Assembly (NCBI RefSeq): GCF_001641085.1
Contig: NZ_LXIE01000031.1
Location: 1-64,000, forward strand
From: Aequorivita soesokkakensis
GTDB taxonomy: Bacteria > Bacteroidota > Bacteroidia > Flavobacteriales > Flavobacteriaceae
Reading direction: 5' to 3'
DNA length: 64,000 nucleotides
Below are positions 14,792 through 16,841 of this stretch, one piece after another (within the stretch, counting starts at the first letter, position 1; the number at the start of each line of letters is the position of its first letter). The position numbers were made by a program, and so were the translations under genes. Under the pieces are notes generated by a model. That model did not search any database, had not been told where the DNA came from, and worked only from the letters and a program-made list of their open reading frames with translations.

Positions 14792-14871
14792 AGGTAGTTT
14801 AGATTGATGAACCTATATAACGCTATTTCTTTCAGATTGTTACAATGTTCAATTAGCAATGAACAATTTTT

Positions 14872-14934
14872 AAATCACAAATCACAAATCACAAATCACA
14901 AATCACAAATCACAAATCACAAATCCCAAACTCC
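14872..14934. repeat. Heptamer tandem array (AAATCAC)7 plus two variants
   Basis: Seven perfect head-to-tail copies of AAATCAC from 14872 to 14920, then AAATCCC and AAACTCC. It is the longest and cleanest of the 7 bp arrays in this window. It lies in the spacer between two minus-strand genes. Confidence 0.97.
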
Positions 14935-15410: not shown

Positions 15411-15620
15411 TTAGCTGGGGGCTTCCCAAATAACTTCAAGTTGGTCACCACTAATAGTGAATGTTGAAGATTCTTCATATTCAATATTAAATTTATCATT
15501 ATCAAGAAATTCTACTTCAAATTCATTGTTTCCATAGCTAATCAATATGGTTCCCTCCATTCCTTTTAGGATATTCTTGTTTAAGTTAACTTTAAGTTTA
15601 ACTATATCGTATTCTTTCAT
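15411..15620 (-). CDS. DUF4926 small protein
   Basis: A 69-residue protein with the DUF4926 pattern MKEYDIVKLKVNLN, GMEGTILISY, FEVEFLD and a closing QLEVIWEAP, a small SH3-like beta barrel in likely fold. DUF4926 proteins are often near toxin-antitoxin or mobile small genes, though no partner is evident here. Its start is immediately preceded (minus strand) by GTTAGGTGTCATTAAAGA, the end of the attC-like element at 15630. Its stop TAA is within GCTAACGCC, resembling how integron cassette stops lie in their recombination sites. Confidence 0.85.
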   Translation of the reverse strand: MKEYDIVKLKVNLNKNILKGMEGTILISYGNNEFEVEFLDNDKFNIEYEESSTFTISGDQLEVIWEAPS

Positions 15621-15629
15621 TCTTTAATG

Positions 15630-15770
15630 ACACCTAACGGTCTCGTATAAGAATAGTTACGGGTTTACGTGCGAGGATTTTCCGCAGGAAAATCAGACGT
15701 AGTAAACTTGCAACGACCTATGGTTAAGCCCAAAATTGAGCAATTATTTTTATACATTGTTGGCACACGT
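15630..15770. repeat. attC-like 140-bp imperfect inverted repeat
   Basis: A long dyad with nested pairing arms: ACACCTAAC (15630-15638) with GTTGGCACAC (15759-15768); GTATAAGAAT (15645) with ATTTTTATAC (15746), one G-U-type difference; GTTTAC (15663) with GTAAAC (15702); and a central perfect hairpin GATTTTCC-GCA-GGAAAATC (15676-15694). On the minus strand the element ends GTTAGGT, which fits the integron R' core GTTRRRY. It lies exactly between two short minus-strand genes. Identity as a recombination site is an inference; a MITE-type or other dispersed repeat is the main alternative. Confidence 0.6.
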
Positions 15771-15772
15771 TT

Positions 15773-16252
15773 TTATTTTATCAGTCCAGAAACATTGTTC
15801 CAATTAATGTCCTTTTCCATAGTGAAATTAATTCTTCGTATTTCCTGAATTTGGTCAAAAAAGATATTTGTTTTGTCTTGGTCAAATCTTGGTTGGTCAA
15901 CGTAAAAAATAATATCCCTAAATCCGTTCTGCGTTACTCGTCCGATAAAATGAGTTTTGTGTTTTTCCGCAACAAATTTCTCGATTTTATCTTCTAATTC
16001 ATTCAGTATTTGTGCTTCACTTTCTGTCGGCATTTTTCGGTCGTCAATATCTTTAAGTTCTAAAGTTACTTGAATCCACCAAGGAAAGTATTTTTTATTC
16101 GGATAATTGTCATACGACTTATTAATATTCGAAAATCCGAAGAATCCATTATCATCTGTGATTTCACTAACCTCAAACAATTCGCCAGGATAAATCGGTT
16201 CGGTCGGTCCGTATTTTTTCGGTTCTTTTTTTGAAAATAATTTCTTAAACAT
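15773..16252 (-). CDS. Hypothetical protein, putative cassette gene
   Basis: A 159-residue hydrophilic protein with a lysine-rich start (MFKKLFSKKEPKKYGP). No family recognised, though TNIFFDQIQEIRRINFTMEKDINWNNVSGL and the mixed alpha/beta pattern resemble DUF695-type small hypotheticals. It has no signal peptide. The gene is flanked by 10 bp inverted ends, GTTGGCACAC at 15759 and GTGTGCCAAC at 16268, and by the attC-like element on its 3' side. That arrangement fits a single gene cassette in minus orientation. Confidence 0.75.
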   Translation of the reverse strand: MFKKLFSKKEPKKYGPTEPIYPGELFEVSEITDDNGFFGFSNINKSYDNYPNKKYFPWWIQVTLELKDIDDRKMPTESEAQILNELEDKIEKFVAEKHKTHFIGRVTQNGFRDIIFYVDQPRFDQDKTNIFFDQIQEIRRINFTMEKDINWNNVSGLIK

Positions 16253-16267
16253 CTTGTTCGGTTAAAT

Positions 16268-16277
16268 GTGTGCCAAC
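16268..16277. repeat. Cassette-end inverted repeat GTGTGCCAAC
   Basis: An exact reverse complement of GTTGGCACAC at 15759-15768, 16 bases upstream of the start of the gene at 15773-16252. In an integron-type reading, cassette excision would rejoin these complementary core ends. Confidence 0.6.
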
Positions 16278-16312
16278 TAGTAAATAACAACATGCAGTTT
16301 ATTTTCCATGTC

Positions 16313-16329
16313 TTTGCTAAGATAGCAAA
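16313..16329. repeat. Small hairpin TTTGCTA-AGA-TAGCAAA
   Basis: A perfect 7-bp inverted repeat with a 3-base loop, lying directly after the stop codon of the minus-strand gene remnant. There is no clear T run on the minus strand, so terminator function is uncertain. Confidence 0.5.
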
Positions 16330-16463
16330 TTAACTATTCCCCACCACAGCCATCAACCTCTCCACCTTGGCATTCAGCAGTTTATTTTCCTCTTCCAGTG
16401 TGGCAATACGTTCCTGCAAGGGCAGGGTAGGGTCTAGGTCTTTGACGGTAAATTTGGACGGGA
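16330..16463 (-). pseudogene. Remnant: coiled-coil C-terminus of a lost gene
   Basis: An open frame without start codon, bounded upstream by an in-frame stop that overlaps the end of the gene at 16464. It encodes about 43 residues: a KFTVKDLDPTLPLQERIATL part followed by EEENKLLNAKVERLMAVV and a stop. This heptad-rich tail resembles the extreme C-terminus of secreted tail-fibre-like or chaperone-of-endosialidase proteins of flavobacteria. Everything upstream of the tail is missing, so it is probably a leftover from a deletion or cassette replacement at this site. Confidence 0.65.
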
Positions 16464-16841
16464 TTAATCATCTAGTTTAATAAACTCAACAGGCGCATCT
16501 ACATAAACGCCCTTGGCGTGAACTTTCATCCAGTTGCCTTTTGTTTCAAGGATTTCGCAGTAATTTTTTTTGCCTATTATGTGGCTCACGTCTTCTGGGT
16601 AGTTTTCTATTCTTTTGTAGGTTAAAACATATTCGCAATCTGAAACCCATTCCACTGTGGAATGGATTTCTATTTTATCTATTGGGTTTATTTCCACTTG
16701 TGTAGAATCTGTACGGATTACAATTTCGGGCTGCTCCTCAAGCACATATTTAAAATTGCCCGTTTTGAAAAAGGCACAGTCTTTTTCTTGAGCGTTTATG
16801 CAGAAAGAGGCCAAGAGGAATATGTATAGTATGTTTTTCAT
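16464..16841 (-). CDS. Small secreted protein of unknown function
   Basis: A 125-residue protein with a signal peptide (MKNILYIFLLASFCINAQ). The mature part has KDCAFFKTGNFKY, a VEWVSDCEYVLTYKR strand pair and CEILETKGNWMKVHAK, which I recognise as a small family in flavobacteria that databases sometimes mislabel as DNA topoisomerase IV; nothing topoisomerase-like is present. The two cysteine pairs could form disulfides in the periplasm. The start overlaps the stop of the upstream gene by 4 bases. Confidence 0.8.
   Translation of the reverse strand: MKNILYIFLLASFCINAQEKDCAFFKTGNFKYVLEEQPEIVIRTDSTQVEINPIDKIEIHSTVEWVSDCEYVLTYKRIENYPEDVSHIIGKKNYCEILETKGNWMKVHAKGVYVDAPVEFIKLDD

Follow-up and report, generated by a model that had tools for sequence, protein, structure and literature searches.

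The insertion I2 of integron integrases (IntI) is described as absent from all other proteins. Its origin has been posed as a chicken-and-egg question, namely what I2 was good for before attC, or attC before I2 (PMC7790495, PMC4792948). I2 is treated as a requirement (PMC7790495, PMC9668308). The former paper, citing Messier and Roy 2001, states that I2 is necessary for cassette capture. In an integron-like subgroup, the insertion is not fully conserved, yet it is called essential (PMC8138268). Since I2 is held necessary (PMC7790495), an I2-less enzyme acting on attC contradicts the accepted mechanism. From Bacteroidetes, only integrase genes without cassettes (In0) and one complete integron, that of Salinibacter ruber, are reported in the literature searched (PMC9024848). 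Neither I2-less integrons nor cassette arrays of Flavobacteriaceae were found described in the full-text literature searched; subscription journals and bioRxiv were outside the scope of this search, and an existing report cannot be excluded.

We analyzed a 64,000-nt stretch of the Aequorivita soesokkakensis genome (the window) and the loci related to it. The system found there shares several features with chromosomal (sedentary) IntI integrons, e.g., those of Vibrio and Xanthomonas (PMC9024848, PMC11551772): an attI beside the recombinase and joined at G|TT; cassettes of ~0.7 kb in tandem, each with a single ORF in sense, an attC at its 3′ end, and an R″ complementary to its own start; a bottom strand favored for folding; and long arrays (~65 kb in genome G016). 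In contrast to these integrons, the recombinase of the family lacks I2 and is often oriented the same way as the cassettes, the core is not GTTRRRY/RYYYAAC, the attC sites of Flavobacteriaceae are ~130 or 190 nt long and have an L stem with a conserved pair that is A.C on the top strand and T.G on the bottom strand, and several integrase-free attI copies are dispersed in one genome. The reported Bacteroidota integrons (Salinibacter ruber, In0) belong to the same broad phylum and also consist of integron parts, but their IntI has the classical profile, whereas no protein reaches the cut-off of this profile here. We hold with high confidence, as one joint claim, that the window contains an attI, one complete integron-type cassette (DUF695 gene and attC), and the start of a truncated second cassette, that the complete cassette was most likely inserted in trans, and that all of these are parts of an integron system found widely in Bacteroidota, especially Flavobacteriaceae, with tyrosine recombinases that lack the IntI-specific I2 insertion.

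All features of the window locus are on the minus strand, where a truncated gene end is followed by an attI-type site, cassette 1, its attC, and the start of cassette 2. The attI-type insertion site (..AGCAAAGACATGGAAAATAAACTGCATGTTGTTATTTACTA|GTT) is located at positions 16275–16324, with the G|TT crossover point between 16277 and 16276; its 37-bp site and junction recur before different cassettes. Cassette 1 is complete (639 bp, 15638–16276), as judged by its complementary end cores, and is composed of a 159-aa DUF695 gene (PF05117; 15773–16252; Pfam E 2.2e-13) and its own attC. The ORF starts 26 nt past the core, like in other cassettes of the family. A sequence-only reading of this DNA had proposed that a 140-bp inverted repeat ending in GTTAGGT is an attC-like element. 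The repeat was confirmed at 15628–15771, where it folds as a long interrupted hairpin, and GTTAGGT was found at 15632–15638 as the R′ of the site. This attC-type site was recognized by alignment and consensus fold and scored 145 bits with a covariance model of the element (R1). Its R″ is located at 15759–15768, its L stem is GTATAA.AATA / TATT.TTATAC, and its inner hairpin is GATTTTCC..GGAAAATC. Rfam gave no match in the attC/cassette region. The same reading had placed the DUF695 gene between 10-bp inverted ends, GTTGGCACAC and GTGTGCCAAC. These ends are exact, as the start core of cassette 1, GTTGGCACAC (16268–16277), is the exact complement of the R″ of its own attC, GTGTGCCAAC. In integrons, complementary cassette ends are the product of inserting a circle opened at G|TT. 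The interpretation of the inverted ends as one core site split by insertion holds, and end-to-end complementarity is the rule in arrays.

Cassette 2 (15411–15637) begins with TTAGGTGTC at the R′ of this attC, is incomplete, and lacks an attC of its own. It carries a 69-aa DUF4926 gene (15411–15620; Pfam E 5.9e-8). The motif GCTAACGCC, noted earlier at the stop codon of this gene, is present there, but it is not the R″ expected for this cassette (GACACCTAAC), which was not found. Moreover, the surroundings of the motif are not repeated, it occurs once in the loci examined, and the border has no recognizable core site. The DUF4926 border looks like that of a truncated second cassette. In 59 related genomes, the DUF695 gene had no close relative and only distant matches (24%–28% identity), and the DUF4926 gene had no match at all, as expected of cargo. 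The beheaded gene tail suspected at the other border (16330–16467) is real. It is the 3′ end of a repeated, ~119-aa gene, with the C-terminus ..ERIATLEEENKLLNAKVERLMAVVGNS before the stop codon. The gene is intact in relatives but has its 5′ side cut off here, and the attI lies just downstream. Elsewhere in the window, a short tandem repeat, (ATCACAA)n with ~8 copies, was observed downstream of a DUF1398 gene (14871–14930).

The 37 bp at the junction (16275–16311) are identical at 33 of 37 positions to the site beside a tyrosine recombinase gene on another contig (C1) of the same genome. In this genome, attI was found in five copies (window, C1, C2, C48, and C49), which share one junction but are each followed by a different cassette. 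They have 0–4 mismatches to the C1 copy over 37 bp, and the junction is always ..ACTA|GTT or ..ATTA|GTT. The C1 copy is located ~50 bp after the stop codon of the 280-aa recombinase, and the copies on C2, C48, and C49 are without integrase. Among the relatives, G019 has a diverged attI (8 mismatches) 19 bp after the orthologous recombinase gene, and G017 has an orphan attI copy. For another recombinase type, two loci from two species (L051 and L053) have an identical integrase and an identical attI, followed by different first cassettes.

The window contains one attC and one attI copy, which stands alone without a recombinase gene beside it. As no integrase is in the window, a CALIN-type site had been suggested. 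The cassette is not simply integrase-less debris; the attI copy that it occupies is nearly identical to the recombinase-side copy on another contig. The locus also does not meet the CALIN criterion (at least two attC sites, without integrase or attI), having one attC and, in addition, the attI copy. In its isolated cassette without adjacent integrase, the locus is similar to CALINs and to cassettes inserted at attG, i.e., secondary, sites (Loot et al. 2024, cited in PMC12901181). It differs from these in that its target is a conserved attI copy and not a non-classical genomic site. Insertion of the window cassette at a random secondary (attG-like) site was no longer considered once its flank was recognized as an attI copy.

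A cassette role for the attC-like element would have failed if it occurred only once or always with the same two genes. Neither was the case. The element is multicopy, with three close copies (93%–100% identity) in its own genome and more detected by the covariance model, and the gene content between copies varies. Close copies are located on contigs C1 and C45, and further copies occur across the genus and family. Sixteen copies were aligned; their consensus fold has 30 pairs, and in 8 of these both sides change. Model R1 detected 107 matches in 20 loci and 13–18 in the own genome, and 37 of the 59 relatives had matches. The single-sequence fold of the window attC was no better than that of shuffled sequences (z about −0.8) and would not be proof by itself. 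In arrays, the attC sites are in one orientation and typically 0.5–1 kb apart; in the ~65-kb array of G016, 26 of them have cassette evidence on both sides.

For a comparison of sites, 193 distinct attC from 42 loci were used; arrays of the family occur in many Flavobacteriaceae and in other Bacteroidota. The site search required paired outer arms and had no bias for A.C over G.T. Conservation of the GTTRRRY/RYYYAAC motifs, on which the sequence-only reading had made the cassette role depend, was not observed: the classical consensus is kept in only 16 and 9 of the 193 sites, respectively. The core of the family instead consists of GTT-R and a run of loosely constrained bases, complementary within each cassette; GTT and AAC themselves are kept. 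An unpaired spacer with sides of unequal length (mostly 3 vs 5–6 nt) separates the R stem from the L stem. The seventh pair of the L stem is a top-strand A.C (bottom-strand T.G) in 119 of 171 flavobacterial sites, in place of a bulge; these sites were picked by ungapped pairing, which is biased against bulges. Across stem positions 7–11 of the 193 sites, A.C/C.A occurred 200 times and G.T/T.G only 6 times. In 176 of 193 sites, the bottom strand folded more stably than the top strand (mean −2.4 kcal/mol, compared to +0.3 for random segments). The sites therefore have the classical attC feature of a hairpin with L and R stems, an asymmetric unpaired spacer, and a favored bottom strand. Selection has kept the bottom strand foldable at the cost of the top strand, a pattern that would fit a bottom-strand substrate, like in known integrons. 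In several attC sites (L049, L058, L006, and L017), the R″ region is replaced by TTGTGCAACAGGCACA, a repeated variant junction. In the G016 array (L101–L104, G016:C1:1588000–1662000), units of ~277 bp recur many times and are probably copies of one short cassette.

All 7 variable positions of the start core were complementary to the R″ at the end in 34 of 119 consecutive site pairs, compared to 0.8 expected from shuffled pairings of ends (maximum of 6 in 2000 shuffles). The longest ORF was in sense in 43 of 44 well-formed cassettes, whose median length was 668 bp. In these units, the ORF starts ~30 nt past the core, and its stop codon is located 17 nt ahead of the end of R″. This is the anatomy of integron cassettes. 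These cassettes are also shared between genomes. A 964-bp cassette is 100% identical in two species (G001 and G021), and cassettes with 90%–91% identity are common to G000 (the genome of the window) and G024, to G015 and Seonamhaeicola, and to G006 and Algibacter, with alignment only from about the core onward. Homology of the shared cassettes starts at the core or within ~20 bp of it. Within the C1 array of the own genome, a 449-bp cassette-plus-attC unit is duplicated at 99.1% identity, once attI-proximal (L042:2953–3283) and once distal (L042:13688–14018), each 331 bp plus attC. This suggests recent excision and reinsertion, or copying. Arrays thus have cassettes in common as precise units, which is a criterion for an integron. 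The proposal that the window holds an attC and a gene cassette is upheld.

Wherever an examined array included its start, an I2-less recombinase and an attI were located there. In the scan of named genomes, the array began 35–301 bp past the stop codon of the recombinase in 9 of 10 array-bearing loci (Flavobacterium aciduliphilum, Flavobacteriaceae S0862, Seonamhaeicola aphaedonensis, Winogradskyella ursingii, Aquiflexum, a Sphingobacteriales MAG, Rufibacter, and two Bacteroidetes MAGs). In the tenth, Algibacter onchidii, this distance was 1262 bp. The same recombinase-then-array layout was found on a plasmid of Rufibacter tibetensis, where the attC sites are short. In shuffled controls across all loci, 23 chains of two and 2 of three were obtained. 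Because two-unit chains arise in these controls, the two-unit arrays L129 and L135 are weak evidence on their own.

The catalytic residues R, K, H..R..H, and Y are conserved in the array-side recombinases. The gap between the KG.K.R and H.LRH motifs was 64–71 aa in all 23 of them, compared to 72 aa in XerD and 106 aa in IntI1 and 13 other IntI; the IntI-specific insertion is thus absent. In agreement, the IntI profile TIGR02249 (cut-off 265 bits) gave 186–219 bits for the five array-side recombinases tested, and the alignment stopped at 181 and resumed at 239, skipping model positions 182–238. The predicted structure of one array-side enzyme (mean pLDDT 85, pTM 0.56) was closest, in its recombinase part, to XerA (Z 25.4) and IntI4 (Z 21.6). 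Xer/XerA-like simple tyrosine recombinases (PDB 5hxy and 4a8e), which have no I2, are the closest solved relatives by sequence and fold. In contrast to them, the array-side recombinases adjoin cassette arrays and attI, carry a C-terminal ..SPLD motif as in IntI, and in most cases have an extra N-terminal domain of ~90 aa or more.

In a wide tree, IntI formed one clade (SH-aLRT 100) inside a large I2-less family, and all array-side recombinases were outside this clade. They occurred in several Bacteroidota lineages, with weak deep forks, among relatives that had no array in the stretch examined; for 42 similar proteins in the tree, no array was observed nearby. A single array-side group beside IntI appeared only in the first tree, with three XerD as outgroup, and was broken up in the wider one. 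For this reason, we do not claim a sister group or ancestor of IntI; the claim is limited to an I2-less integron variant. I2-less relatives were also observed in Spirochaetota, Bacillota, Patescibacteria-type lineages, and archaea (L145, L149, L154, L157, and L171), with no convincing cassette array in the stretch examined.

The family meets the functional criteria for an integron, namely complementary cassette ends, an attI with G|TT near the recombinase, and a recombinase at the array start. The evidence for an integron, while confined to sequence, is very strong: cassette anatomy, attI copies with one junction, recombinase-started arrays, shared cassettes, absence of I2, and strand asymmetry are all established at this level. 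Most likely, the recombinase encoded on the other contig (G000:C1), with its almost identical attI, would have inserted the window cassette in trans. It would join the folded single-stranded attC (bottom strand) to the double-stranded attI at G|TT, and the strand asymmetry through wobble pairs is proposed to act in place of I2 in avoiding exchange of the second strand. Catalysis by the array-side recombinase, use of the folded bottom strand, and resolution of the junction without I2 are inferred, as no recombination was observed. For the broader proposition, we see the chances as evenly balanced: that some integrons run entirely without I2, with the I2-less family from which IntI branches capturing and shuffling cassettes through folded attC, and with the strand chosen by bottom-strand wobble pairs rather than by I2 reading bulged bases.

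An ordinary I2-bearing IntI could have placed the cassettes and since been lost from the own genome, leaving CALIN remnants. The missing integrase at the window would fit this, and true IntI exist in the phylum, where 84 of 296 genomes had a protein over the profile cut-off. However, nearly all of these were from other classes and none was within Flavobacteriaceae, where arrays are common; no protein over the cut-off was found in the own genome or the 59 relatives either. All arrays with a visible start have an I2-less recombinase and attI there, and the attI copies of the own genome are near-identical to the site beside the I2-less enzyme. We therefore consider lost IntI improbable. The chromosomal XerC/XerD might instead move the cassettes, with the array-side recombinases only neighbors or regulators. 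I2 is likewise absent from Xer enzymes, which are known to integrate the single-stranded DNA of phages (PMC4792948, PMC7790495), but this leaves unaccounted for the distinct, mobile-looking recombinase that heads one array after another across many genera. In addition, the attI sequence tracks the recombinase type, since the own genome and G019 share both, as do L051 and L053. This explanation appears very improbable.

Least credible of all, and barely worth entertaining, is that the sites are unrelated attC look-alikes, such as miniature transposons with palindromic ends, or REP-like repeats, that a transposase has spread. The element is indeed long (~140 bp), palindromic, and dispersed, and the classical GTTRRRY core is rarely kept. 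In contrast to such repeats, it alternates with single sense-oriented ORFs, arrays begin at a recombinase-linked attI, and duplications span exactly a cassette plus attC. The start core of a cassette pairs with the R″ of the next site and not with those of its neighbors. This within-cassette complementarity, together with the attI junctions, already contradicts an unrelated element.

If the I2-less integron reading is true, integrons without I2 would show how attC and cassettes could predate I2, or would show I2 to be dispensable. Such integrons, as a large natural group, would make the question of I2 origin testable with living enzymes. Surveys keyed to the IntI domain and the classical attC may have missed a major gene-capture system of Bacteroidota, given the matches in 37 of 59 related genomes.

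The ~119-aa gene whose 3′ end precedes the attI of the window is repeated in G000, G017, G007, G001, and others (also L218:6191–6550), with intact homologues in G017, G006, G013, and G001. Its conserved tail is ..LEEENK.L..KVETLMAVV. It may serve the platform, or an insertion element, as an accessory or regulatory gene. Copies of attI of the C1 integrase type were observed just downstream of this gene twice in G000, once in G017, and probably also in G007. A gene of this kind adjoins the array recombinase in G001.
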